From positions 43,455 to 107,454 of IMG/VR virus record IMGVR_UViG_3300032242_002636: 64,000 bases of DNA; one strand, given 5' to 3'. The translations under genes and the position numbers were made by a program. The notes under the pieces were generated by a model. It was not told the origin of the DNA. It worked only from the letters and a program-made list of their open reading frames with translations, and did no database searches. Below, piece by piece: positions 2,627-38,747 of the stretch (position 1 is the stretch's first letter; each line of letters starts with the position of its first letter). The stretch is from a virus.

Positions 2627-3031
2627 TTAATTATCCTCCTCGTCTATATCTAGGAAGTTTTCATGCTGCTGCTTAAGGAATATTGTCTTAAGAAATTCCA
2701 TCATAGCATCACGATCTTTGGCATTTTTAAAGTGCTGAATTATGGTTCTATCTCCTTGTGTACTATATCCAAAAAGAATATAAGCATCCAGATATTCAGT
2801 TATAATTGACTTCAGAATATTTAAATCCCTCATGACAATCTTATTGTCTTGATAATTTTTCTTAAGCCAAATATCTAAAGCCTTTTCTAGCTCTAGGTTA
2901 TTAAGAGAAGAAAATACCTTTTCCCTAATCTCCCCTAAAGAAGGTTCTTCTATAGGAGCTTGTAATCCTGTGGAGGATAGAGAAGGGACAGAAGTATTTT
3001 TCTTTATTGTTCTTTTTTTAGGCTCCGACAT
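2627..3031 (-). CDS. Hypothetical small protein, 134 aa
   Basis: The start at 3031 (MSEPKKRTIKK) is chosen because extending to 3169 would run deep into the upstream 107-residue gene; with this start the two overlap by only 14 bases. The N-terminal 30 residues are basic and Ser/Thr/Pro-rich, probably disordered. The rest is predicted helical and ends in an acidic tail (DIDEEDN). Position downstream of the sliding clamp gene suggests a replication or transcription accessory role, but no motif supports one. A gp33-like coactivator was considered; I see no convincing match. Confidence 0.6.
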   Translation of the reverse strand: MSEPKKRTIKKNTSVPSLSSTGLQAPIEEPSLGEIREKVFSSLNNLELEKALDIWLKKNYQDNKIVMRDLNILKSIITEYLDAYILFGYSTQGDRTIIQHFKNAKDRDAMMEFLKTIFLKQQHENFLDIDEEDN

Positions 3032-3341
3032 AAGTTGAGGCTTTGTTATTAATGCCAAACTTAACAAGGTATTCAATAACAACCTCAATGGAGCTAGTCT
3101 TGATCTTAAAACGATCTGGAATGAACTGTCCTCCGTCATGCAGTTCGAAGTATTCCTCACCCATTTCATTATGATTATTATAACAAGTGATGATTACCGA
3201 TGCTACATTAGGATCTACTACTACAGTCCAACTACGAGGATCTGTATAAGCATATTCACCGAATAGTTTATCTACTACATAACCGCTGTCACGAAGACGC
3301 TTAATAAAGTAGCTGCATGTTGTTATTTTATTCTTTGACAT
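3018..3341 (-). CDS. Conserved-looking hypothetical protein, 107 aa
   Basis: A compact alpha/beta protein opening with a Cys-containing helix (YFIKRLRDSGYVVDKLF) followed by strands (SWTVVVDPNVASVIITCY). The style resembles small conserved proteins of T4-like phages, but I cannot name a function. It lies 25 bases downstream of the gp45 clamp gene in the same direction. A TAAATA-like box (minus strand, 3349-3356) ends 7 bases before the start and may allow separate late expression. No membrane segment or enzymatic motif was seen. Confidence 0.65.
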   Translation of the reverse strand: MSKNKITTCSYFIKRLRDSGYVVDKLFGEYAYTDPRSWTVVVDPNVASVIITCYNNHNEMGEEYFELHDGGQFIPDRFKIKTSSIEVVIEYLVKFGINNKASTYVGA

Positions 3342-3366
3342 ATCGTTTTTATTTATTGAAATGTTT

Positions 3367-4119
3367 TTATTTTACAAGTGCAGAAACAATATACTTTAAT
3401 TCAACATCACTATCATCTTTATTCTGAAATACAAATACTTTATACTGATTATTGATCTTTACCTTTACATCATTGCGACATGTAGCAAGATTCTTGAATA
3501 CTTCAGTATTAATAGGAAGTGCTTCAGGAATTGGTTGACCATCAAATTCTTCAGATATTTTTAAAGTAATATTATCAACATTCTGTAGTGTATGATCATT
3601 AATTTCAGCACATATTCTTCCTTCACTGGTATAGAAATAAATCTTAGTAAGATCGGATGCAAATGCATATCCAGCCATGATTTGTTTGAGTTTTGCAGTT
3701 GTTATAGAAAATTCTGTATCAAAGTTTAATTGTGCAATTTTACTGATATTAACAGGACATTCCCTAACAACAGTATCATCAACAAGATGATATTTAAAAT
3801 GAGTATTTTCATTATCAGGAGCTTTATTAAGACACTTGATGTTATTATGATTTAATTCTATAGAAAATTCACCATTGTCACCCAAGCATTCAAGACCAGA
3901 TAAAAGCTTCTTGATACTAATAATGTTCAGTCTGATAGGCTTTTCAATCTTAAGAGGAAGTTTAATCCTAGCATATAAGATTACTGTATTATCAGGTGAT
4001 GAACAGATAGTATAAAGACCTTCTGTATCAGTCTTTAATACACAACTCTCTGAGAGTCTGTTTACAGGCTTCAAAAGCTTTTCTAAAAAAACCTTTGGGA
4101 TAGGGATTAATTCACTCAT
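3367..4119 (-). CDS. gp45: Sliding clamp (DNA polymerase processivity factor), gp45-like
   Basis: At 250 residues it is close to T4 gp45 (228), the trimeric ring that holds the replicative polymerase on DNA and, in T4, also activates late transcription with gp55 and gp33. The sequence shows the repetitive strand-rich pattern of clamps, including KIYFYTSEGRICAEINDHT and a phage-clamp-like FKYHLVDDTVVRECPVNIS. There is no enzymatic motif, as expected. It overlaps the upstream gene by 8 bases and is co-oriented with gp32. The clamp loader genes are elsewhere (gp44 at 62.5 kb, gp62-like at 43.2 kb). Assignment rests on recognised pattern and context. Confidence 0.8.
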   Translation of the reverse strand: MSELIPIPKVFLEKLLKPVNRLSESCVLKTDTEGLYTICSSPDNTVILYARIKLPLKIEKPIRLNIISIKKLLSGLECLGDNGEFSIELNHNNIKCLNKAPDNENTHFKYHLVDDTVVRECPVNISKIAQLNFDTEFSITTAKLKQIMAGYAFASDLTKIYFYTSEGRICAEINDHTLQNVDNITLKISEEFDGQPIPEALPINTEVFKNLATCRNDVKVKINNQYKVFVFQNKDDSDVELKYIVSALVK

Positions 4120-13649: not shown

Positions 13650-13668
13650 AGAGAGTATTATACTCTCT
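13650..13668 (-). promoter_or_regulatory. Hairpin abutting the gp43 start codon, candidate translational operator
   Basis: AGAGAGTA (13650-13657) and TACTCTCT (13661-13668) form an 8-bp stem with a 3-base loop. The loop is the stop codon of the upstream glycosyltransferase gene, and the 3' arm ends at the base before the gp43 ATG. T4 gp43 represses itself by binding a hairpin at its ribosome-binding site; an equivalent role here is inferred. Confidence 0.5.
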
Positions 13669-14971
13669 GCTCTGGGTTATTTGCAACTAAAATCTTTGAT
13701 TTAGCGTTTCTTTCTTTAGATCCCCAAGCGGTTGTGTATATTGCTTCGTATTCATCCATATGATTTTCTAACCATAGACCTTCTGTAAAGGTTCTAGCCT
13801 TTCCAGACAGATCCATATAGCGATCAAAGTCAGAAGTAATATACTCTAACTGAGAAATTAGATCCTTACCATCCTTAAACGGACATTCTGCTCCCTCATA
13901 GGTGCAAAGATCCTGATAAGCACCGGGTAATCCGAATGCTCCTGCCTCAACCATCTTGATATTGCTCTTGGATTTGTTGAATACGTTATCAACGAGAGGT
14001 GCGAATACTGCATTGGCTCCTACATCGTGAATACTTTGTGGAAGATCCATTAAAGGAGACCAATCAATGTATTCCATTTCACCATTATCAATGAATGGTT
14101 TGACTGCAAGTGGGTAGCATCCCTTCCATACAAACTTAAATTTCTTACGAGCCTTGATAATTTCTTCTACTACATGAGAGAAATCATCTTTCATCCCTGT
14201 ACGATTGGTTACATCAATGTGTGTTCCAGATCCAGCATAAAGAATACGAGGACGCTTCTTATGTCTGTCATAGAGTTCTTCAACACGTTTCTTATCATAG
14301 AAACGATCAAGCCAAAACTTAGGAGGATAGTTAGGAATGACTGTAATATTTTTATTACCTGTCTTATTGATGTAGTAATCTTTCATGTACTGACAGGTGA
14401 CAGTTACTTCATCCATCATTCCCATGATTTCTAAGATACTTGAAATGATATCTTGGCTTACGAATGCATCTTTACATCTATTATAGTCAGGAATATCATC
14501 CTTGAAGACGATATCATCGACTTCATAAATCAAACGATATCCCATCTGAGGCTTTGCCTTTACCAATTCTTTAATGAATGCATTCTGTACAGGTGTTGCC
14601 TGTCTTTGCATTCTGATTGCACTAATTCCTTGATAGAATCTAAGATCCAAAACCATACAAGTAAGTCCTGAAATGACTGCCTTGTTATAACTATTTAAAC
14701 AAAATTCGGGCCAAATCATTCTCCAATATCCACAGCCACCGTAATCAGCATAGTAATTGATAGCTCTAGGAAGGCTCATCTCTGGCATATCAATAGGAGG
14801 AGGCTCTGGAAGTTTTACAGGATTTGCGGCTACATAACTGTAGCTAGGCATACCCAAAGGAAGATTATTAGGAGCATTTGGAATACCGCTCTTGGTTGGC
14901 TTGTATTCGTATACAATGCTCTTTGAAGTATCTACAGGAGCAGGAGTATTAGAACCTTTTATCTTAATCAT
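13658..14971 (-). CDS. Glycosyltransferase, GT-B fold (GT4-like), 437 aa
   Basis: The C-terminal half carries a GT4-type nucleotide-sugar site: PRILYAGSGTH (near 247-257), then FNKSKSNIKMVEAGAFGLP, where the Glu of KMVEAGAFG corresponds to the conserved glutamate of the EX7E region. The N-terminal half holds YEVDD (150-154) and a Rossmann-like pattern, preceded by about 60 Pro-rich residues. The acceptor is unknown. It is unusual for a glycosyltransferase to head the polymerase transcription unit, and coupling to gp43 is tight. Confidence 0.75.
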   Translation of the reverse strand: MIKIKGSNTPAPVDTSKSIVYEYKPTKSGIPNAPNNLPLGMPSYSYVAANPVKLPEPPPIDMPEMSLPRAINYYADYGGCGYWRMIWPEFCLNSYNKAVISGLTCMVLDLRFYQGISAIRMQRQATPVQNAFIKELVKAKPQMGYRLIYEVDDIVFKDDIPDYNRCKDAFVSQDIISSILEIMGMMDEVTVTCQYMKDYYINKTGNKNITVIPNYPPKFWLDRFYDKKRVEELYDRHKKRPRILYAGSGTHIDVTNRTGMKDDFSHVVEEIIKARKKFKFVWKGCYPLAVKPFIDNGEMEYIDWSPLMDLPQSIHDVGANAVFAPLVDNVFNKSKSNIKMVEAGAFGLPGAYQDLCTYEGAECPFKDGKDLISQLEYITSDFDRYMDLSGKARTFTEGLWLENHMDEYEAIYTTAWGSKERNAKSKILVANNPEQRV

Positions 14972-22010: not shown

Positions 22011-23492
22011 TTAAAAAATTACTGAAATGTATTTCACTCCATCTTTAACTTCCTCTGAAAAACTTTCTATCATTTCCAAGCAATTTGATAGACCATCTTT
22101 CTTGTGATAGTTTTTACCTAGTTTTCCATTGACAAATGCCCTGAATCTATCACCATTCTTTAGGTGTAGATTGTTTTCTACCTGATTTGTCAATCTATGT
22201 TGGTGGGGAACACTATAAAAACGTCCATATGGGCTTTTATAGGGCTTTAAAGACTCTTTCTCACACCTTGCATAGAGGTCATCATCTTCTTTTCCCCAAC
22301 CATTGAACTCATTACTATATCCATTTACCTGTTTGTAATGTTCATTGGTGAATAAAACAACTCCACCCATGATTTTATCAGGGATATTAATATAATTAAA
22401 CTGACTGCAATGACTACTCATGTGAGTAGGTAAGGCTGGATAGCTATAATCAGCAAATTCTGGCAAAAGATCGACATCATGAAAACAAATATAATCAGAA
22501 TCCTTAGCAGAAGCAGCAAATCCCACATTATTAAGCAATCCTTTGTTGAAAGGTTTGTCATTTTGTTGTTCAACTACAATTATCTCAAAGTTTTCTACCT
22601 GCTTTGATACATATTCTTTTAATTTAGGTAATAAAAGTCTACGAGCAGTCTCTCTATTTCTATATGGAATAATAATTGAGAGTTTTTTTCCTTTATTGAC
22701 TAGTTTTTTCCTGCTATAGTTTGTTTGAAGGTGTATTAAACACTCATGCAACTGTTGAGCAGTAGGTTCTGGTACATCTATTGTAAAATGTCCCCACTTT
22801 TTGATAAAGTACTCGGTAGATTTTGCTACATTTTTTTTATACATAGGTTTATTGGTAATAGATGAGTTGTCATTACTACCTTCTATGTCTGTTAGATACT
22901 TTTCACTGTCTAAAATATCAGGAAAGAACCAAAAACAAGGTGCTACTCCCTTTCTAGTAAGGTTATAAGCGAAATCTACATGCTCAAAGGCATTCATGTA
23001 CTGTTCATCAAAGTATCCTAGCTTTTTAACAAGACTAGCATTGATATACATGAAGGCTCCTTGTGGATTATGGTAAAATCCTATCTTAACACCATCAGGT
23101 TGTTCTAATACGAACTTTAAAGTCTGTTCATTACCAGCAATTTTTTCAAAACATAGGTGATGTATACCTGTGGACTGAGCAGCTTTTATATATTGTTGAA
23201 ATATACTGGTATCTTTGATTAGAATATCATCTTCAATCAAGAAGATATGCTCCACATCACGCTTTATAAGCTCAAATATAGCCTTGTTTTTTGATTTGGA
23301 TACACCCAACTGCTTGTCATTGTGGATAACAACATCGCCATCTTCACTTTTTGCATAGTGATCGGTTCCATCATTTACAATAACAAGCTCATCTATCTCA
23401 TTTCTTGGGATAGATGCTAAACATTTCTTATAATACTCAAAACGATTGTAGGTTGTTATTCCTACTCCTATTTTACCGTATGTCTTTTCCAT
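22011..23492 (-). CDS. Glycosyltransferase fusion: GT2-like domain plus beta-1,4-galactosyltransferase (GT7)-like domain
   Basis: Residues 1-215 form a GT2 domain (GVGITTYNRFEYY, metal motif HIFLIEDDILI) closely related to the next protein upstream. Residues about 265-450 match the order of motifs in animal beta-4-galactosyltransferases: IIPYRNR, FNKGLLNNVGF (near 314), CFHDVDLLPE, then GGVVLFTNEHYKQVNGY (near 377) and NGWGKEDDDLYAR. In GT7 enzymes these bind UDP-Gal or UDP-GalNAc and Mn2+ (DVD) and supply the catalytic acid (WGxEDDD). All are intact. Galactose or GalNAc transfer is inferred from the family. Confidence 0.85.
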   Translation of the reverse strand: MEKTYGKIGVGITTYNRFEYYKKCLASIPRNEIDELVIVNDGTDHYAKSEDGDVVIHNDKQLGVSKSKNKAIFELIKRDVEHIFLIEDDILIKDTSIFQQYIKAAQSTGIHHLCFEKIAGNEQTLKFVLEQPDGVKIGFYHNPQGAFMYINASLVKKLGYFDEQYMNAFEHVDFAYNLTRKGVAPCFWFFPDILDSEKYLTDIEGSNDNSSITNKPMYKKNVAKSTEYFIKKWGHFTIDVPEPTAQQLHECLIHLQTNYSRKKLVNKGKKLSIIIPYRNRETARRLLLPKLKEYVSKQVENFEIIVVEQQNDKPFNKGLLNNVGFAASAKDSDYICFHDVDLLPEFADYSYPALPTHMSSHCSQFNYINIPDKIMGGVVLFTNEHYKQVNGYSNEFNGWGKEDDDLYARCEKESLKPYKSPYGRFYSVPHQHRLTNQVENNLHLKNGDRFRAFVNGKLGKNYHKKDGLSNCLEMIESFSEEVKDGVKYISVIF

Positions 23493-28826: not shown

Positions 28827-29768
28827 TTAACAATATTGCCATTTATATCCATATGCAGTTTTTCTTTTACCTAAACATACTCTGACTATTGCTTGATATT
28901 TTGCGTTGTTATCTTTAGCTGCTTCTTTTATAGAGTTATATTCCTTTAATAAATTTCCATTTAAATCTATTTTTTTAACTTTTGTTTTATTAAAATTATG
29001 CAATTTTTTTAAATGATTTATAATTTTTATTGTTTTTTTGGGTGATTTTCTGTTTATATGTTTTCTACCAGTATTTAATTTTCTAAAATAAATCGACCAT
29101 TCTTTTTTTGTTTTTTGTGGTTTTTTATTTTTAATTTTTATTTTTTTTTCTTTTTTAATTTTTATTTTATAATTAAAATCATTATTGTTTTCAAATTTAA
29201 AAATAAATTCATTTTTGTATAGTTTATTATATTCATAAAAATTGTTTCTAAAATATACATCAGAGAATTTTTCAATTTTATACATCTCAGTCATAGATGA
29301 ATATCTTTTAATTAAATTACCATACAAATCTGTTTTTAGTATTGGTTTTAATATTTTTTTATATTTTCCTAATCTATGGTTTTCTTTGTTTTTTAAACTT
29401 ATTTTTATCTTTTCTTCTTTTGTCATTTTTCGTTTAATTGGAGGTTTGTTTCCTCCTTTATGTAAATTTAAACCTATTTTAGAACCATTTAAAACATTTG
29501 AATTGTATTTTTTAATATAAAAAATTTCTCTTGAGTTTAGATCAATTTCATTACATTCTTCTAAAACTTCAAATTTATGGTTAATATACCCATATTTTTT
29601 AAAAGATTTAAAAATTAAACTGTTTTTATTTCTTTTTTTATAACAATCATAGTCTCTCTGAAAATATTTATAAGAATTCCATCTAGAACATATGTTTTTT
29701 GATTGTCCTATATAAATTTTATTATTTGGTGATGTTATTTTGTATATTCCCGTTATTTTTTTCATCAT
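28827..29768 (-). CDS. GIY-YIG homing endonuclease with C-terminal NUMOD-type DNA-binding repeats
   Basis: Residues 5-95 form a GIY-YIG nuclease: GIYKI (7-11), IYIGQ (18-22), an Arg in ICSRW and the later Glu in NSREIFYIKKY. Repeated target-reading modules follow: TDLYGNLIKRYSSMTEMY near 145 and a complete one at the C-terminus, IDLNGNLLKEYNSIKEAA then GYKW, typical of NUMOD1/IENR1. It stands free, not in an intron, and is more AT-rich and Lys-rich than neighbours, consistent with mobility. It overlaps the upstream endonuclease gene by 47 bases. Confidence 0.88.
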   Translation of the reverse strand: MMKKITGIYKITSPNNKIYIGQSKNICSRWNSYKYFQRDYDCYKKRNKNSLIFKSFKKYGYINHKFEVLEECNEIDLNSREIFYIKKYNSNVLNGSKIGLNLHKGGNKPPIKRKMTKEEKIKISLKNKENHRLGKYKKILKPILKTDLYGNLIKRYSSMTEMYKIEKFSDVYFRNNFYEYNKLYKNEFIFKFENNNDFNYKIKIKKEKKIKIKNKKPQKTKKEWSIYFRKLNTGRKHINRKSPKKTIKIINHLKKLHNFNKTKVKKIDLNGNLLKEYNSIKEAAKDNNAKYQAIVRVCLGKRKTAYGYKWQYC

Positions 29769-30210
29769 TGTTACTTATACATGAAACCATATTTTCGTAA
29801 TATTTTTTTAAACTTTTTGGAGGACGGTTAATTCTAACATTTAAAATTCCATTATATGTATCATCTCTAAACAAAACATTATTTTCTATTTGTAATTTTA
29901 ATTCTTCATATTTTAGTTGCCACTTACAGGTACATAACTTGAGTATTGTTCTTTTAAAGTTTTCCTTACCATGTTTTTTAACATCTTTTTTCAATTCTTC
30001 ACTACTACCATAGTAATCTTTCCAATCTGAGTCGCATATTTTTTTTCTTTTTCTTTTAAATCCTTTCAAAGGTTTTAATTTTATTGTTTTTTTTAACATT
30101 TTACATCCCCAATAATATTTTTTTTCTTTTTGTTTTGCATTTAATCTTTCGATCAAATAGACAAAACCAAACCAATCTTCCAAATTATCAGGTATATTTT
30201 CCCATTCCAT
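29722..30210 (-). CDS. Second GIY-YIG-like endonuclease, Seg-type, 162 aa
   Basis: GFVYLIERLNAKQKEKKYYWG near residues 15-35 is a GIY-YIG-type start, with the second element read as YYWG. The segment SDWKDYYGSSEELKKDVKKHG and KRTILKLC, then KYEELKLQ, follows the layout of short phage GIY-YIG nucleases such as Seg proteins. ATG at 30210 is chosen; a TTG at 30237 in the same frame would collide with the divergent gene. Together with the next gene it forms a mobile endonuclease pair. Activity uncertain because the motif is divergent. Confidence 0.65.
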   Translation of the reverse strand: MEWENIPDNLEDWFGFVYLIERLNAKQKEKKYYWGCKMLKKTIKLKPLKGFKRKRKKICDSDWKDYYGSSEELKKDVKKHGKENFKRTILKLCTCKWQLKYEELKLQIENNVLFRDDTYNGILNVRINRPPKSLKKYYENMVSCISNNDEKNNGNIQNNITK

Positions 30211-30224
30211 ATTTGTACTTATAG

Positions 30225-30232
30225 GTAAATAT
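30225..30232 (+). promoter_or_regulatory. Late-promoter-like box GTAAATAT
   Basis: GTAAATAT lies 4 bases before the ATG at 30237. Matches the NTAAATAN motif seen before other structural-type genes here. Confidence 0.45.
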
Positions 30233-30236
30233 AACA

Positions 30237-30797
30237 ATGGCTAATACATCTTGCATCTATTGTGGTTCTTCTTCATATGGAAAACCATGTCTTTTTTCTC
30301 CTACCGAAACACATGTTCATATGGATGAACCCGGTAAGTGCATCTATTGTGGATCTCCTTATATAGGAACAGGTTGTATATGGAATCCTTATGGAAATGT
30401 TCATGTAAGAGGGCCAGAATATCTAAATAGAGCCTCTGTACAGAGTGAAAAAGCTGCTGTTTTATCATATATTTTCAATATTGCTAGTTCTCTTTTATCT
30501 GAAGAACATTCTTATACTTCTCCTTTAGATAGATTATATAAGAGAATGGCTTCTATCATTGCTTCCGTAACAGAACCTCTTCTAGAGGCACTCTGTCTTC
30601 AAGAAACACCTACCTACGGAAAGCTCTCAAAGCCAGAACTCATAAAAACTGTAGAATTTAAAAACAAATTTAAAAAACAGTTGGAAGAATTTTCTGAAAC
30701 TTTAAAAGAAGCTTCTTTGGCTTTACCACAGGAAATAGTTGAAAAAACATTAATAGATGCTATAATGAATCTTGATGTTAGAAAAAACAAAGATTAA
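30237..30797 (+). CDS. Protein with tandem Cys/His zinc-type motifs, 186 aa
   Basis: Two near-identical modules open the protein: CIYCGSSSYGKPCLFSP (6-22) followed by HVH, and CIYCGSPYIGTGCIWNP (35-51) followed by VHV. Each has CxxC plus a third Cys and, in the first, His, the arrangement of a small zinc ribbon. Residues 65-186 are helical, ending in a basic tail. Function unknown; RNA, DNA or protein binding is possible. A late-promoter-like box 4 bases upstream suggests late expression. Confidence 0.7.
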   Translation: MANTSCIYCGSSSYGKPCLFSPTETHVHMDEPGKCIYCGSPYIGTGCIWNPYGNVHVRGPEYLNRASVQSEKAAVLSYIFNIASSLLSEEHSYTSPLDRLYKRMASIIASVTEPLLEALCLQETPTYGKLSKPELIKTVEFKNKFKKQLEEFSETLKEASLALPQEIVEKTLIDAIMNLDVRKNKD

Positions 30798-31257
30798 GGA
30801 TTTCCTAATCTATTATATTTCACAAAGAATTATAATATTCCCAATATATGAGTATCTTCCTATACTTGCGAATACTATTATAAGAGATTTTCAAGAGTGG
30901 GATCTATTAGAAGGTAAGAAAATTACTCAAAAAGAGAAATACTTTAAATATTTCTTAGAAAAAGAACTTGACAAAATATTAGAAACGTTTATAATATTAT
31001 TTAGGGACCTTAATATTAAAATTATTACAGTATATAAAGAAGTATTACTAAATTCAGAATATTCAGAATTCTTCATAAATTATGAAAACTTTAGTAAAAT
31101 TGTAAAGTATAAAATAAAGAAAAAAACCAAGTACTTCAGGGAAATAAAAAATGATTCTCTATTTCTCAATACTAAAGGATATTATAAAAATATAAGAGTA
31201 GGAATACCTAGTGGAGAAGACCTTGAATTTTTTATTAAACTTAATAAATTAAAATAA
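30775..31257 (+). CDS. Hypothetical Lys/Ile-rich protein, 160 aa
   Basis: Not recognised. ATG at 30775 is chosen over an adjacent TTG at 30772; either overlaps the upstream gene by about 25 bases. Mostly helical, with many Lys, Ile and Phe and a hydrophobic stretch near residues 8-30 (FLIYYISQRIIIFPIYEYLP) that could associate with a membrane. Low GC like the downstream glycan genes. Confidence 0.5.
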   Translation: MLEKTKIKDFLIYYISQRIIIFPIYEYLPILANTIIRDFQEWDLLEGKKITQKEKYFKYFLEKELDKILETFIILFRDLNIKIITVYKEVLLNSEYSEFFINYENFSKIVKYKIKKKTKYFREIKNDSLFLNTKGYYKNIRVGIPSGEDLEFFIKLNKLK

Positions 31258-32186
31258 TGGACAAATATTCAATTTTTCATATCGATGGTGGTTGTGGTAA
31301 ATCAATAGTAGGTACTTCTGTTGTTAAATCAATAAAAGCAGCATATCCTGAAAACAAATTAATCGTTGTAACAGCATATCCTGAAGTATTCCTTCATAAT
31401 CCTAATGTTTTTAGAGTATATAAATTTGGAAATATTGCTTATTTTTATGATGATTACATAAAAAATAAAGATACTAAAATTTTCAGAATGGAACCTTATC
31501 ATTCTGGTGATCTTCTTTACAAAAAAAAGCATTTAGCGGAAATATGGTGTGATGTTTTTAATATTCCCTGTGTAACCACAAAACCAGAAATATTTTTAAC
31601 TGAAAGAGAATTAGTTTCTGTTAATAAAGAATTAAACAAACAAGGTCCAGTATTGATTATTCAATCATCAGGAGGTGCTGAAAATCAAAAATATCCTTAT
31701 TCATGGTCTAGAGATTTACCTTCTAATACTGCACAAGAAATTGTTAATGAAGTTAAAGATAAGTTTAGTAAAGTCCTTCATATAAGAAGAAATAACCAAT
31801 TAGAAATTAAAAATACAATTCAACTTTCTGATAATTTTAGAAATCTTTTTTGTTATATTTTCTTAGCTGATAAATTCTTATGTATGGACTCTTTTGTTCA
31901 ACATGCAGCAGCAGCTTTTAATAAATCAGCTACAGTTGGATGGATTTCAAATTCACCTGTTGTATTTGGGCATGAAATTCATACTAATATAATTGCATCA
32001 GGAGAAGAATCATTCCGTCATCGTATTGATTCATATTTAGAATCTGAAGATTGGACAGGTGGAAGGCTTTATGAATGTCCTTATGATAATCTTTCTACTA
32101 TTTTTAATAAACAAGATTTTATAGATTCTATTTTAGAAACAAAAAAAGAATTGCTTTTTCAAGAAAATCCAACTATAATATTCTAA
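31257..32186 (+). CDS. Glycosyltransferase, GT9/heptosyltransferase-like, 309 aa
   Basis: N-terminal FHIDGGCGKSIVGTSVVKSIK is the opening of GT9 enzymes, which transfer heptose or related sugars. The C-terminal CMDSFVQHAAAAFNKSATVGW with NSPVVFGHEIHTN matches the GT9 donor-site pattern (DS..H.AAA, then a glycine-containing loop). Middle QSSGGAENQKYPYSW is consistent. Length 309 is typical. It starts at the stop of the previous gene and leads a four-gene glycan cluster. Confidence 0.75.
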   Translation: MDKYSIFHIDGGCGKSIVGTSVVKSIKAAYPENKLIVVTAYPEVFLHNPNVFRVYKFGNIAYFYDDYIKNKDTKIFRMEPYHSGDLLYKKKHLAEIWCDVFNIPCVTTKPEIFLTERELVSVNKELNKQGPVLIIQSSGGAENQKYPYSWSRDLPSNTAQEIVNEVKDKFSKVLHIRRNNQLEIKNTIQLSDNFRNLFCYIFLADKFLCMDSFVQHAAAAFNKSATVGWISNSPVVFGHEIHTNIIASGEESFRHRIDSYLESEDWTGGRLYECPYDNLSTIFNKQDFIDSILETKKELLFQENPTIIF

Positions 32187-32187
32187 C

Positions 32188-33006
32188 ATGATATTTTTTA
32201 ATTCCTCAATGCCGAGAAGTATGTCAACGCTTCTCCAATGTATTCTTAATCAAAATCCAGACATAGCAGCAACTCCTACCGATCCTGTTTTGGAATATCT
32301 TTTTGGTGCTAGGTTGAATTATACAAATACACCAGAGGTTAAGGCTATGGATAAGGAGTTAGCCTTGAGAACATGGAGAGGATTTTGTTGGGGAGGATTG
32401 GAAGGATATGCAAATGCTTATTCATCCAAAGAACATCTTTGTATCAAGACAAGAGGAGGAACAATTCATTATAAATGGTTTGAGGCTTTCATGCCAGAAA
32501 AGCCAAAAATGGTTTGTATGGTTAGAAACCTTAAAAGTATTATTTCTTCAATGGAAAAAATCTATAGAAAGAATCAAGAATCCCATCAGGCAATTCAAAA
32601 TCACTCTGAAATGAAAGGAACCAATACTCCAAAGCGTGTTGATGCTTGGATGGCTTCTCCACCAGTAGGAATGGCATTAGAACGCTTACAGCAGTGCTTC
32701 CTAGAAGGTATCAATAAAGAAGTTCTTTATATTAGAGCCGAAGATTTAACTTCCTATCCACAAAGAGAGATGGATAAGATTTACAAATATCTTGGATTTG
32801 AATCTTTCCAACATGATTTTGATAATGTTGAACAGAGTATTAAAGAAGATGATTCTGTTTATGGATTAACTTCTGATCTTCATACTATCAGACAAAAGGT
32901 ACAACCTTTAACAAGCGATTATACACAGATTTTAGGTAATCAGGTATGTGATTGGATTGATAACACTTATTCTTGGTATCAGAAGGGATTTGGTTATATT
33001 AAATAA
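32188..33006 (+). CDS. Sulfotransferase-like protein, 272 aa
   Basis: SMPRSMSTLLQ (7-17) is a 5'-phosphosulfate-binding loop of PAPS-dependent sulfotransferases, with Arg and Ser/Thr in place. VCMVRNLKSIISSM near 109-122 corresponds to the 3'-phosphate site (R..x7..S). YIRAEDLTSYPQREMDKIYKYL is the usual C-terminal helix of the family. The acceptor is probably a sugar or protein tyrosine, but cannot be chosen from sequence. It lies 2 bases downstream of the GT9-like gene. Confidence 0.78.
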   Translation: MIFFNSSMPRSMSTLLQCILNQNPDIAATPTDPVLEYLFGARLNYTNTPEVKAMDKELALRTWRGFCWGGLEGYANAYSSKEHLCIKTRGGTIHYKWFEAFMPEKPKMVCMVRNLKSIISSMEKIYRKNQESHQAIQNHSEMKGTNTPKRVDAWMASPPVGMALERLQQCFLEGINKEVLYIRAEDLTSYPQREMDKIYKYLGFESFQHDFDNVEQSIKEDDSVYGLTSDLHTIRQKVQPLTSDYTQILGNQVCDWIDNTYSWYQKGFGYIK

Positions 33007-33092
33007 CTAAATAATCACTTATAAAGATATTTTAGTATAAATTAATCTATAGATATATTATTATTTGTATATAATAAATATTATCAGATTAA

Positions 33093-34970
33093 ATGCATCT
33101 CTTTACAACATATTTTAAATCTACTAATCAAGAAAGACAAAAAGAACTTGATTTTTGTATTAAAAAAAATTGCTTAAATGACATTATATCTAGAATAACT
33201 ATTTTTCTAGATAGTAATACAACAGAAGATGATCTTTATAATTTGGGATTAGATTTAACAAAAATTGATTTTGTTAAAATAAATAGACTTCCAACATATA
33301 AAGATTGGCTTATTAATGGAATTAATTCAAATGAAGAGTTTTTAATTTTTTCTAATGCAGACATTTATTTTAATGAAACACTAGAGGAAATTAAAAAATA
33401 CCCATTAAATGAAAAAGCAGTAATGTGTATTAGTCGTTATGAAGAAACCATAAACGGAATTGAAAAAACAAAATTTTCATTTTTTTCTCAAGATGTTTGG
33501 ATAATAAAAAGAAAAAACATACCATCTATAACCTTTATAGATAATTTGAATATATCTACAGGTGTTGTTAGATGTGACAATAAATTTGCTTATTTTTTTG
33601 CATCTAATGGTTGGGATTTATATAATCCAGTAGAACATATAAAAGTCATACATAGACATGAATCAAATATAAGAACTTATGATTATTATAGTAAAGAAAA
33701 TACTGGTTCTGTAGCATTTGTAGAAGAAAGTCACAATTATATGCCTTCTGAAGTTATGGTTAGAAACGCAAATGTTAATAATCTTAACTCTAATTATAGT
33801 TCTGGTGAAAATATTCCTTTTAATATTAAAACCTATATACATAGAGCTATTATTAATAGATACATTATAGCTAATGACTATGAAAGTTTAATAAAATATA
33901 CACAAGAAGAAAATAGTCCCAAATTGCTTTCAATGGTAATGGAACATTTAGATAAGCATAATGATTTGAACTTTGTAGAAATATGTAAAAATGCTTTACA
34001 AAAAAATAATACAGATATTAAAAATAATTTTTTTAAACCTATTTTAAGTCATTATAAAAAACAACATTTGAGTGGTTGGGGAATTATTAATTGTGAATTA
34101 GAAAATTTTAGTACTACAACTGATGCTATAAATTTAGTAAGTTTTCTTTCTCAATCTTATACTTTATATAATAATAGAATTGAATTTAAACAAACTTTAA
34201 GCAAACCTTGGATCGGTATAGAACATCTAACTAACTATATACCAGAATATTACAATTTTGAAAATAATTCTCATAAATTATTTCAGAATATTAAAGATAT
34301 TGGAGTTCTTGATACATGCAAAGGAATACTTTTTACCTCAGAAACTCAATTAAAAAATCAAATAAACAATCTTTTTTTAAATAATATAAAAAAAGATTTT
34401 ATCTATCATCCTATTATTAGATGTAATTCAAGTATAGATTTTAATTTTAATTTGTTTTTAAATAATAAAAATAAGCAATTGATAAATTTGGGTTGGTATA
34501 ATAGAAACTTTACAGTTTTTGAAAAATTACAAGTTCAAGATTATAAAAAAATATTTGTATTTGGAGGAAAAGATAGCAATTATAGATACAATATATTTCA
34601 AAAAGACTTGCAATACCATAATATTGATAAAGTGACAACAGAAATCGCTCCACATTTAAAGGATAATGAATTAAACGAATTATTATCCAATAATATAGTC
34701 TTTATTAATTTATATGATGCAGCAGCAAATAATGCTATTTTAGATTGTATTGAAAGATCAACACCTATAGTTGTAAACAGATTACCTGCTTGCGAAGAAT
34801 ATCTTGGCAAGGAATATCCTCTTTTTTATGATACTATAGATCAGGTACAAGATTTACTTTCTTTTGAAAAAATATATCTAGCTCATTCGTATTTAAAAAA
34901 TATCGATAAAACAAAATTTACAATGGAGTCTTTTATTACAAAGATAAATCAATTTGTTGAATCATTATGA
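33093..34970 (+). CDS. Bifunctional glycosyltransferase (GT-A plus GT-B domains), 625 aa
   Basis: The N-terminal 210 residues look like a GT-A domain with EEFLIFSNADIYFNE (near 85-99) as the metal site region. The C-terminal 200 residues are GT4-like: QLINLGWYNRNF, KIFVFGGKDSNY, then LYDAAANNAILDCIERSTPI and NRLPACEEYLG, the donor-site and substrate segments. The middle is helical and Asn/Lys-rich. An 86-base AT-rich gap precedes it with a CTAAATAA box at 33006-33013. The low GC suggests separate ancestry from replication genes. Confidence 0.65.
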   Translation: MHLFTTYFKSTNQERQKELDFCIKKNCLNDIISRITIFLDSNTTEDDLYNLGLDLTKIDFVKINRLPTYKDWLINGINSNEEFLIFSNADIYFNETLEEIKKYPLNEKAVMCISRYEETINGIEKTKFSFFSQDVWIIKRKNIPSITFIDNLNISTGVVRCDNKFAYFFASNGWDLYNPVEHIKVIHRHESNIRTYDYYSKENTGSVAFVEESHNYMPSEVMVRNANVNNLNSNYSSGENIPFNIKTYIHRAIINRYIIANDYESLIKYTQEENSPKLLSMVMEHLDKHNDLNFVEICKNALQKNNTDIKNNFFKPILSHYKKQHLSGWGIINCELENFSTTTDAINLVSFLSQSYTLYNNRIEFKQTLSKPWIGIEHLTNYIPEYYNFENNSHKLFQNIKDIGVLDTCKGILFTSETQLKNQINNLFLNNIKKDFIYHPIIRCNSSIDFNFNLFLNNKNKQLINLGWYNRNFTVFEKLQVQDYKKIFVFGGKDSNYRYNIFQKDLQYHNIDKVTTEIAPHLKDNELNELLSNNIVFINLYDAAANNAILDCIERSTPIVVNRLPACEEYLGKEYPLFYDTIDQVQDLLSFEKIYLAHSYLKNIDKTKFTMESFITKINQFVESL

Positions 34971-35719
34971 ATAAGGTACTTTTATTAACACAAGCAAGAC
35001 ATGGATCTACATATTTTATAGATAATTTATTTAAAAAAGGTAATATAGAACAATTTTATATGGAGTATGAATTATTTAAAGAATTTTATTTACAAGACCA
35101 AGATGGACTTTTAGGTTTTGTAAAAAGACATTCCTTAGTAAATTTTGAATTTGAAATTATACAATTAAAAAAATTAAGAAAAACAAATGAAAAAGAATAT
35201 TTTAATACAATTTTTAAAATGTTAGAAAAAAATGCAAAAGAATATAATACTAAAAACTATGGTTTTAAAATTTTTCCTTCTCATGTTTATGGAATGATAG
35301 GAAATAATAAAATAAATTTACAAGAAATAATTTCATTTGTAGATAAAATTATTATTTTAGACAGAGATGATATTGAATTTGCTTATTCATTTGCAAATGC
35401 TATTGTGACAAATAAATGGTCAATTTCTCAGAGACACGAAAAGAAAAGAGTTATTTTAAATAATGAGCAAATAAATAATATTATCAATCAAATTAAATTA
35501 AAAAAAAGATTTTTTGAAGAAGCAAAACAAATAATAAAAGAAACAAATAAAGATTGTTTATATTTACATTATAACAATTTAGGCAAGTCTTATAAAGACA
35601 TTAATAAATTTTTAAATATTGATTTAAAGACTTGGATTCCTTTTGAAAAAAGGAAATATGATTATGAATCTTTTTTAAAAGATAATCCAACCTTGTTAAA
35701 TTTTTTTTATAAAATATAA
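34967..35719 (+). CDS. Second sulfotransferase-like protein (Stf0-type), 250 aa
   Basis: LLLTQARHGSTYFIDNLF (5-22) contains the RxGSTxF 5'-phosphosulfate loop, and IIILDRDDIEFAYSFANAI (near 128-146) the 3'-phosphate region with Arg and Ser. This matches the Stf0 type, which sulfates sugars such as trehalose. It overlaps the bifunctional glycosyltransferase by 4 bases (ATGA), so the two are translationally coupled. Very Lys/Asn-rich and AT-rich. Confidence 0.68.
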   Translation: MNKVLLLTQARHGSTYFIDNLFKKGNIEQFYMEYELFKEFYLQDQDGLLGFVKRHSLVNFEFEIIQLKKLRKTNEKEYFNTIFKMLEKNAKEYNTKNYGFKIFPSHVYGMIGNNKINLQEIISFVDKIIILDRDDIEFAYSFANAIVTNKWSISQRHEKKRVILNNEQINNIINQIKLKKRFFEEAKQIIKETNKDCLYLHYNNLGKSYKDINKFLNIDLKTWIPFEKRKYDYESFLKDNPTLLNFFYKI

Positions 35720-35735: not shown

Positions 35736-38699
35736 CTATAAATAAACTGGTATATAACCAATATAATTTCCATTATAATCAAAAGCAGAAACACGTTTTG
35801 AGAATGTACCAAGTGTACCAGCAGTTCCTGTACAATTAAATGCAGGATTTGTCATAGTAACTCTACCTTGTGAACTTAAGTTATTAACATAGGTATAATT
35901 TACTTGTTTAGCACTTAAACCAGAACCTAATAAGAACGTATTGTCATAGTTTGTATAGTTAGCACAACCTCCAGCTATGAAGGAACAAGAACTATTATAG
36001 ATGTAATTGTTTTTTCCACTTGTAATATTTGAACTATCTACAGTACAATTATAAGCGTATATAGTATTACCATGTCCACTTATAATACTGGAATCAAGTA
36101 AAAAGCTTATAGGATACGAATAAGCAGAATTAGAATTATTATTACATAAAGTATTATTAGAACCACCAGAAATACCTAAATTGTTTATTGCACTATTTAG
36201 GTTAGCATTACATATAGTATTATAAGAACCACTAGTAATGTTTGAATTATAAAAATAACCACATGTTGCGCCTCCAGATATACTATTATGAGAGCCACCA
36301 CCTATACTTAGAAAAGAACCGGGATTATAATTACCAAAACCAGAAGAGTTTATTGAATTCGACTGACCACCTACAATACTTGAATACTCTGCATTAATTG
36401 TATTACCACCACCTCCTCCGATATTAGAAGCACCAAGATAAATTGTATTACCAGCACCACCCCCGATATTAGAATTACCACCAGAAACTGTATTAGCATT
36501 TCCACCAGCTATGTTGGAATAACCACCAGAAACTGTATTAGCCTTTCCACCAGCTATGTTGGAATAACCACTAAAAACTGTATTATTTTTACCACCAGCA
36601 ACATTAGAAGCACCACCACAATTAACTAAATTGCTTACACCACCTGCAATAAAAGAACAAGAAGCATTATAAATAAGATTACCATGACCACCTGCTATAC
36701 TAGAATCATTTATATTTCTATTTAAACCGCATATACTATTATTACAACCGCCAACTATAGATGTATTGGAAAGAGTGCCATAGTAACGAACAGAATTAAT
36801 ATTATTAGAACCACCTGCTATAAATGCATTTGAAAGATTGCTATTATTATAACCACAATTACTATTACCACAACCACCTGCTATCGATGTATTTGAAAGA
36901 GTGCTGCATAAACCAATACTATTAATATTATTACAACCACCAGCTATCGATGTATTTGAAAGAGTGGAGCAGTAACCACTATTACTATTACCAGATCCAC
37001 CTGCTATCGATGTATTTGAAAGAGTGGAGCAGTAGCAACCACTATTACTATTACCAGATCCACCAGCTATCGATGTATTTGAAAGAGTGGAGTAGCAACC
37101 ACTATTACTATTACCACAACCACCAGCTATCGATGTATTTGAAAGAGAACTACTAGCACTACAATTGGTATTACTTGAACCACCAGCGATATTTGAATAA
37201 AATATACCTCCACCACTGCTATTACTACAACTACTCGTGCTATTATTATAGCCACTGATAATACCTGAGCTATTTATACAGCTATAACAGGATTTTATAA
37301 TATTGTTACAGCCACCAGCAATATTTGAATTACAAATACAGCCATAATACGGGTATGTAAGTATTGTATTACTACTTCCCCCAGTAATATTTGAATTACA
37401 AATACTAGAATAATAAGCACTATTTGTAGCAATATTGCCACCACAAGTAGGTGTAATAATATTAGCACCTACACTAGTATTATATTGATATACAGATCCT
37501 GCAAAAGCATCACAAAGTAAATAACCAGTCGTTGCATCACAGGTTGCTACATTTGCACTACCAGTACTTGTTGCATATCCAGAGTTTGTTGCATATGTAG
37601 CACTAACAGCAGTACTAGCACTTGTTGCATATCTAGCACTAACAGCACTAACAGCAGTACTAGCACTTGTTGCATATCTAGCACTAACAGCACTAACAGC
37701 AGTACTAGCACTTGTTGCATATCTAGCACTAACAGCAGTACTAGCACTTGTTGCATATGTAGCACTAACAGCACTAACAGCAGTACTAGCACTTGTTGCA
37801 TATGTAGCATTTGTAGCATTTGCAACTGTTCCATTTAAAGAATAAATTGTACCACAAACACAAAGATCGTTTGTATAGGTTGTATTTGAAGCACCAGCTG
37901 TTATGCTTGATCCAAGAATAAAGGAATTATCGGCTGTATTTATTGTATTATTATGACCACCAGCAATAAATGAACAATTAGAATTATAGATTGAATTACT
38001 ATCACCACTTGCAATAGCTGAACCATTTGAAGAACCATAATAACTAGATATGGTATTATTATACCCACCAGCTATATTAGAATTATTTAAAGAACTACGA
38101 TAACAACCAGATATAGTATTATGAGAACCACCAGCTATATTAGAATTTTCAAAAAATACACAATCAGCGTTACTAGTAATTTTATTATTAGAACCACCAC
38201 CTATGTTTAAAGTACTTGAAACTCCCCAACTTATTGGTGAAGCAGTTATTAAATTATTTACACCGCCTACAATACTTGAATAATCTGTATTTACAATATT
38301 ACCACCGCCACCACCGATATTAGAAGCACCACCAGAAACTGTATTACCACCGCCGCCACCGATATTAGAAATTTCACCAGAAACTGTATTACTACATCCT
38401 CCTCCAATATGAGAAGAATTACTGGCTGCATTATTTAAACCACCACCTATTGCTGAGTAATTTCCATAAGCATTATTATTATTACCACCAACTACATTGG
38501 CATATAATCCACCAGCTATATTAGATCCCTTTACTGGTTTAATAGAATTAGTACCAGAGCCAAAATTATAAACATTATCATTAAGCAAAGCAGATAAAGG
38601 AGTCTGATATGTGGTTCCTTGTATATTTGCTATAAGAACTGCACTACCCGATACTGTAAAATTATTAAATGGCAACTGACTAATTTTCTTTGTGGACAT
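35736..38699 (-). CDS. Long tail fibre/adhesin with YadA-head-like repeats, 987 aa
   Basis: Start at 38699 (MSTKKISQLPFNN) is preferred to 38747: the N-terminus then has the common phage-fibre anchor style, and a TATAAATA box lies 5 bases upstream. Two blocks (about residues 50-275 and 400-945) consist of 14-21-residue repeats of the type SNIAGGxxNTVSGG, the left-handed roll seen in YadA-type trimeric adhesin heads. Between them sits a low-complexity segment of YATSASTAVSA repeats (about 310-385), probably a flexible or coiled stalk. The C-terminus (SKRVSAFDYNGNYIGYIPVYL region) may be the tip or trimerisation domain. Likely trimeric and receptor-facing. Confidence 0.8.
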   Translation of the reverse strand: MSTKKISQLPFNNFTVSGSAVLIANIQGTTYQTPLSALLNDNVYNFGSGTNSIKPVKGSNIAGGLYANVVGGNNNNAYGNYSAIGGGLNNAASNSSHIGGGCSNTVSGEISNIGGGGGNTVSGGASNIGGGGGNIVNTDYSSIVGGVNNLITASPISWGVSSTLNIGGGSNNKITSNADCVFFENSNIAGGSHNTISGCYRSSLNNSNIAGGYNNTISSYYGSSNGSAIASGDSNSIYNSNCSFIAGGHNNTINTADNSFILGSSITAGASNTTYTNDLCVCGTIYSLNGTVANATNATYATSASTAVSAVSATYATSASTAVSARYATSASTAVSAVSARYATSASTAVSAVSARYATSASTAVSATYATNSGYATSTGSANVATCDATTGYLLCDAFAGSVYQYNTSVGANIITPTCGGNIATNSAYYSSICNSNITGGSSNTILTYPYYGCICNSNIAGGCNNIIKSCYSCINSSGIISGYNNSTSSCSNSSGGGIFYSNIAGGSSNTNCSASSSLSNTSIAGGCGNSNSGCYSTLSNTSIAGGSGNSNSGCYCSTLSNTSIAGGSGNSNSGYCSTLSNTSIAGGCNNINSIGLCSTLSNTSIAGGCGNSNCGYNNSNLSNAFIAGGSNNINSVRYYGTLSNTSIVGGCNNSICGLNRNINDSSIAGGHGNLIYNASCSFIAGGVSNLVNCGGASNVAGGKNNTVFSGYSNIAGGKANTVSGGYSNIAGGNANTVSGGNSNIGGGAGNTIYLGASNIGGGGGNTINAEYSSIVGGQSNSINSSGFGNYNPGSFLSIGGGSHNSISGGATCGYFYNSNITSGSYNTICNANLNSAINNLGISGGSNNTLCNNNSNSAYSYPISFLLDSSIISGHGNTIYAYNCTVDSSNITSGKNNYIYNSSCSFIAGGCANYTNYDNTFLLGSGLSAKQVNYTYVNNLSSQGRVTMTNPAFNCTGTAGTLGTFSKRVSAFDYNGNYIGYIPVYL
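36475..36600. repeat. Tandem 60-bp coding repeats in the fibre gene
   Basis: Successive copies of ccaccagaaactgtattagc followed by ttccaccagctatgttggaa occur at about 36479-36524 and 36529-36584, with a third diverged copy after. They encode consecutive SNIAGGKANTVSGGY-type turns. Confidence 0.75.
36872..37145. repeat. Five-copy 60/63-bp near-identical repeat in the fibre gene
   Basis: The core gctatcgatgtatttgaaag recurs with ATCGAT at 36883, 36946, 37006, 37069 and 37129, spacings of 63, 60, 63 and 60. The units stay in frame and encode LSNTSIAGGCGNSNSGCYST-type modules. Near identity at DNA level points to recent duplication or gene-conversion-like exchange. Confidence 0.85.
37558..37812. 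repeat. Low-complexity repeats encoding YATSASTAVSA units
   Basis: Repeated 33- and 45-base units built from gcactaacagcagtactagc and acttgttgcatat, at least five copies. All lengths are multiples of three, so copy-number change would keep the fibre frame. Confidence 0.85.
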
Positions 38700-38704
38700 A
38701 AAGT

Positions 38705-38712
38705 TATTTATA
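38705..38712 (-). promoter_or_regulatory. Late promoter box TATAAATA before the fibre gene
   Basis: The minus strand reads TATAAATA exactly, the T4 late-promoter consensus, ending 5 bases before the ATG at 38699. Confidence 0.65.
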
Positions 38713-38729
38713 TTTATCTCAATAGGAAG

Positions 38730-38737
38730 GTAAATAG
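38730..38737 (+). promoter_or_regulatory. Late-promoter-like box GTAAATAG
   Basis: Ten bases before the ATG at 38748, divergent from the TATAAATA box of the fibre gene in the same 48-base gap. Confidence 0.5.
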
Positions 38738-38747
38738 TCATAATCAA

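Follow-up and report, generated by a model that had tools for sequence, protein, structure and literature searches.

A conserved glycosyltransferase–sulfotransferase gene pair in large T4-like phages and its possible role in fibre sulfation

Why would a phage encode enzymes for adding sugars beside enzymes for adding sulfate, and what would they modify? The question is raised by a stretch of 64,000 nucleotides of viral DNA (the window), bases 43455–107454 of the IMG/VR record IMGVR_UViG_3300032242_002636, which totals 107,454 bases (107 kb) and is possibly incomplete. The DNA polymerase encoded in the window is T4-like, with about 31% identity to polymerases of Kyanoviridae and Methylophilales phages. 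Four plus-strand genes, here called GT9 (31257..32186), ST1 (32188..33006), GT (33093..34970) and ST2 (34967..35719), form two tightly coupled pairs, as an earlier annotation made without database searches (the sequence-only reading) had described: GT9 and ST1 are separated by 1 bp and GT and ST2 overlap by 4 bp, while 86 bp lie between ST1 and GT. We found that GT9 and ST1 are a deeply conserved pair, a two-enzyme cassette of large T4-like phages. We propose that this pair is a glycosylation–sulfation cassette, that a neighbouring repeat fibre is its most likely acceptor and that GT and ST2 are a recent second pair; we put the probability of this combined reading at roughly 0.5.

The conservation of the first pair was established by scanning IMG/VR with each of its members. 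With ST1 as query, 44 viral loci were recovered, 37 of which carry GT9 nearby; three of the seven others begin too near ST1 for a call. With GT9 as query, 80 loci were recovered, and ST1 was present in 67. Grouping the loci at 97% ST1 identity gave 64 clusters. GT9 precedes ST1 within 60 bp in 33 of them, ST1 precedes GT9 within 60 bp in 11, and in a further 16 the two genes share a strand and lie no more than 3 kb from each other; of the remaining four, three have no GT9 and one is truncated. Overall, the two genes lie no more than 3 kb apart on the same strand, in either order, in 60 of the 64 clusters. As both orders occur among the clusters, gene order has flipped between clades while linkage held. 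In a second clade, the typical arrangement is a fibre gene, a GT2-like gene, a GT4 gene, an FkbM methyltransferase gene, a small gene, ST1, GT9 and an adenosine 5'-phosphosulfate (APS) kinase gene, continuing with a small HxGH nucleotidyltransferase, a DUF2061 gene and then the tail sheath and tube.

The second gene, ST1, is a sulfotransferase, as had been proposed. The protein matches PF13469 (Sulfotransfer_3; 2e-10, 41.7 bits against a curated cut-off of 27), PF00685 (Sulfotransfer_1; 2.1e-7, above cut-off) and phrog_27463 (2.6e-36). Its AlphaFold2 (AF2) model has a predicted local distance difference test score (pLDDT) of 93.1, and the nearest solved folds are tyrosylprotein sulfotransferases (TPSTs), followed by polyketide-pathway and heparan sulfotransferases. 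Residues for binding the sulfate donor 3'-phosphoadenosine 5'-phosphosulfate (PAPS) were checked at the level of the sequence. P9, R10, S13 and T14 in the 5'-phosphosulfate-binding (5'-PSB) loop (PRSxST) and R113 and S121 in the 3'-phosphate-binding (3'-PB) motif are invariant in 46 homologues with identities down to 36%. The PAPS-binding motifs and the overall fold are shared with other Sulfotransfer_3 enzymes, namely TPST1 and TPST2, NoeE and those of the cyanophages S-SKS1, S-SRM01 and S-SCSM1. The S-SKS1 enzyme is 30% identical to ST1; no GT9 lies near its gene, whereas the ST1 clade is paired with GT9.

The first gene had been called GT9-like, an assignment that is borne out by the predicted fold. 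The window protein had no significant Pfam match, including to PF01075, and its homologue in locus L110 reaches 19.6 bits against the PF01075 cut-off of 22; a match to phrog_8954 was found at 1.6e-9. An AF2 model built on an alignment of 45 homologues is confident (pLDDT 89.2) and shows a GT-B glycosyltransferase with the GT9 (heptosyltransferase) fold. Its best PDB matches are 3tov (GT9; 2.4e-12), WaaF (1psw), WaaC and TibC, and the 31 best are all structures of GT9 or of bacterial autotransporter heptosyltransferases (BAHT), save for one chain with an unrelated title. We rejected GT9 as a true BAHT enzyme: it has no TIGR04414 match, no CxxC and no four-cysteine iron finger, and profile–profile comparison with the phage BAHT family gave a probability of 5%.

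In 27 of the 64 clusters, APS kinase, which makes PAPS, is encoded no further than 4 kb from ST1, and full-length APS kinases occur at other sites in six of the 11 records of the window clade; across 19 records, neither a PAPS reductase above cut-off nor an ATP sulfurylase was found. Together with the predicted GT9 fold and the invariant PAPS residues, these linked kinases uphold, for GT9 and ST1, the earlier claim that the locus combines sugar transfer with PAPS-dependent sulfation.

What would the pair modify? Beside the four genes, on the minus strand, lies a gene for a repeat fibre or adhesin (35736..38747) with IAGGxxN-type repeats, a protein of 1003 amino acids with 17% Ser, 15% Asn, 8% Thr and 6% Tyr. 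Of 12 long records with such fibres, 10 have the repeat fibre at most 6 kb away from the pair, against 1.7 expected by random placement (Fisher combined 1.6e-4, shared ancestry being ignored). The pair is also found among virion genes, with the portal, head protease and head–tail adaptor genes in locus L021 and the tail sheath, tube and baseplate hub genes in locus L078, where the fibre relative ends in a C-terminal Peptidase_S74 fibre chaperone domain. The L110 clade has a TIGR04414 heptosyltransferase of the Aah/TibC type, with four invariant cysteines, encoded between the fibres and GT9; bacterial relatives of this enzyme hyperglycosylate repeat adhesins (PMC4358343). The homologue itself lies beside repeat fibres at L110:5058-5972 (TIGR04414 8.5e-36), with relatives in L108–L125. 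Taken together, the fibre proximity, the setting among virion genes and the TIGR04414 enzyme near fibres make the neighbouring repeat fibre the best candidate, and from gene context the most likely acceptor.

The arrangement resembles that of the BAHT enzymes TibC and AAH, which act on TibA and AIDA-I (PMC4358343), in the GT-B fold of the GT9 type, in the position of the gene beside a long, repetitive, beta-rich surface protein and in the presence of a true TIGR04414 homologue in the same cluster in the L110 clade. It differs in that the window GT9 has neither the iron finger nor the TIGR04414 match, and in the added sulfotransferase. Phage glycosyltransferases have likewise been proposed to decorate virion proteins in mycobacteriophages (PMC11256854), although a sulfation step is not described there.

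In the scheme that we infer, covering donor sugar, acceptor, order of steps, GT and ST2 function and benefit (adsorption, masking or stability), GT9 would transfer a sugar from a nucleotide-sugar donor, and ST1, with PAPS as donor, would then sulfate that sugar or the molecule carrying it. The PAPS would be supplied by the host or by a phage APS kinase, for which many relatives have a gene. With the long Ser/Asn/Thr/Tyr-rich fibre next door as acceptor, progeny virions would carry anionic, sulfated fibres, in a layout analogous to that of TibC, which hyperglycosylates the repeat adhesin TibA. The second pair, GT and ST2, would probably elaborate the same glycan. If this is true, sulfation, a modification familiar mainly from the surfaces of eukaryotes and from a small number of bacterial glycans, joins the means by which phages modify virions or hosts, and the repeat fibre is named as a testable acceptor. 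A sulfated anionic coat would affect adsorption, fibre stability and receptor mimicry.

Several observations weigh against this proposal. The proximity test overstates its significance, because such phages commonly have fibre genes and the records do not count as independent. In the fetched flanks, only 27 of the 64 clusters have a repeat-fibre match at 6 kb or less. Five of the 11 window-clade records have no APS kinase above cut-off, and none was found in the window's own, possibly incomplete record. GT9 does not have the iron-finger cysteines of BAHT enzymes, and phosphoheptose isomerase was not found in 19 records, so that either the host would have to supply a heptose donor or the sugar is something other than heptose.

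Alternatively, the pair may act on the host envelope (lipopolysaccharide, capsule or exopolysaccharide), blocking superinfection or the re-adsorption of progeny to debris. GT9 enzymes are mostly lipopolysaccharide heptosyltransferases; the window holds more glycosyltransferase genes at 22011-23492 and 13658-14971 (a GT2 and Glyco_transf_7 fusion and a PHROG glycosyltransferase); and GT2, GT4, GT8 and FkbM genes are added to the clusters of relatives. However, in several clades the pair keeps company with virion genes instead of early genes and stands near a fibre, and the cluster was not seen to contain a membrane-anchored flippase or polymerase, although no systematic search was made. We consider an envelope target doubtful, though it is the alternative that deserves the most weight. 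On either target, many large lake phages carry a matched sugar-adding and sulfate-adding gene, usually near a repetitive fibre gene and often with an enzyme that makes the sulfate donor, which suggests that sulfated sugar is placed on the phages' own fibres or on the surface of the cell.

A second alternative concerns the linked APS kinase gene, cysC. In freshwater phages, 62 cysC genes have been read as part of assimilatory sulfate reduction (PMC10914622), and cysC here could similarly serve host cysteine synthesis as an auxiliary metabolic gene, its association with ST1 being incidental. Gene and kind of phage (large freshwater Caudoviricetes) are the same in that study; the interpretation differs, as we take cysC to supply PAPS. 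Scanning with an alignment of cysC products from ST1-bearing phages recovered 70 viral loci, and the 35 contigs of at least 60 kb were examined. A full-length PAPS reductase was found in one of the 35 (and a short partial match in one more), against any sulfotransferase in 19, with Sulfotransfer_3 in 14 and Sulfotransfer_2 above cut-off in six; these counts are not independent, as several of the contigs are near duplicates and the scan was seeded from phages with ST1, and contigs may also be incomplete.

We set aside the co-occurrence of ST1 and cysC as a statistical argument: it is weak, since five of 10 phages picked by their DNA polymerase have Sulfotransfer_3 anyway, three of these five being close relatives of the window. 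With Sulfotransfer_3 this common, gene adjacency is the better evidence. In locus L214, the ST1 orthologue overlaps a gene (2917-3966, 349 aa) for a fusion of APS kinase (8e-67) and CTP_transf_like (7e-9). In locus L191, only 9 bp separate the end of a Sulfotransfer_2 gene from the start of the APS kinase gene. Both arrangements speak against assimilation, which we regard as improbable; the phage cysC data favour PAPS supply for sulfation. Only tentatively would we go further, to a dedicated virion-sulfation module in which the phage's own APS kinase provides PAPS, GT9 and the sulfotransferase coat the fibres, and phage cysC generally serves sulfation and not cysteine assimilation. Were this true, the cysC genes that are at present listed among the viral genes of sulfur cycling in lakes would have an alternative interpretation. 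Our literature search found no paper joining phage, cysC and sulfotransferase; the sole match concerned cyanobacterial photosynthesis.

The second domain of the L214 fusion falls in the broad nucleotidyltransferase fold class that also includes ATP sulfurylase. At a guess, the fusion protein may be a miniature PAPS synthetase encoded by a phage; the nucleotidyltransferase, however, obtains its best scores against nicotinamide mononucleotide (NMN) adenylyltransferases. Elsewhere, a small HxGH nucleotidyltransferase gene directly follows phage APS kinase genes (L078:7282-7680, L193:3891-4355, L199:3899-4363), often with DUF2061 next. Three small HIPKT-type proteins, one of them a Sulfotransfer_2 match above cut-off, are encoded directly upstream of the APS kinase at L191:1568-3516.

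The weakest alternative is that ST1 is a protein-tyrosine sulfotransferase acting directly on the 61 Tyr of the 1003-residue fibre while GT9 acts separately on Ser, Thr or Asn: the 13 best structural matches and the best PDB profile matches are all TPSTs, and in the alignment the invariant K87 is the counterpart of TPST's catalytic Lys, but identity is about 16%, TM-scores do not exceed 0.64, a weak NCBIfam match points to the sugar sulfotransferase NoeE, and the almost constant partnership with a glycosyltransferase speaks for a sugar as acceptor, so we think it very unlikely. The Glu in the GEETR loop is catalytic in TPST. This loop is replaced in ST1 by TPT[S/D] (TPTDP or TPTSG, with T31 invariant), so that tyrosine specificity does not follow from the fold.

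GT and ST2 have a different history. In the IMG/VR scans they were found, outside the window's record, in one near-identical contig only, and at the corresponding position, from ST1 to the fibre, relatives hold other genes. GC content agrees with a division into two modules: compared with 31.4% for the window, GT (23.1%) and ST2 (19.1%) are clearly AT-richer and GT9 (27.5%) mildly so, while ST1 (34.7%) departs from the AT-richness once ascribed to the whole locus. The best explanation is that this second pair was gained recently and came to occupy the position separating ST1 from the fibre. A single acquired four-gene unit, as proposed in the sequence-only reading, was rejected, given the wide distribution of GT9 and ST1, the restriction of GT and ST2 to one near-identical contig and the difference in GC.

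The proposed functions of this accessory pair fared unevenly. The description of GT as a two-domain glycosyltransferase is plausible, as its N-terminal 223 residues share 32.6% identity with a hypothetical protein of Synechococcus phage S-SKS1 whose gene adjoins one for a nucleotide-sugar epimerase, but unproven, with no match in Pfam or PDB. ST2 is a putative sulfotransferase on the strength of a 5'-PSB-like motif (QARHGSTYFIDNL) and a 3'-PB-like motif (LDRDDIEFAYSFANA) seen by eye. The more specific label Stf0-like is not supported: ST2 had no match in Pfam, NCBIfam or PDB, showed no similarity to the ST1 family in a profile comparison and did not match the PF09037 (Stf0) profile, in a search that was silent in all control genomes too.

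Further observations bear on the host. The cyanobacterial marker psbA was absent from 18 related records, and the 47 regions upstream of gene starts in the window show no Shine–Dalgarno enrichment. Bacteroidota and some of their phages likewise have no such enrichment. GT9–ST1 pairs also occur in L142, L146 and L149, contigs binned as Bacteroidetes or Flavobacteriaceae and possibly of phage origin, with fibre repeats near the pair in L142 and L146. The Shine–Dalgarno result and the binning, itself unreliable, give a hint of a Bacteroidota host.

Upstream of GT9 lie two conserved plus-strand genes for proteins of 186 and 161 amino acids (30237..31257), which are syntenic with the pair in close relatives. 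They intervene between GT9 and two minus-strand genes for homing-type endonucleases (28827-30237), and since they travel with GT9 in relatives, the endonucleases do not border the cassette as had been thought. One of the two endonucleases is SegE-like, and a relative of it occupies the same site in syntenic phages, on the opposite strand.

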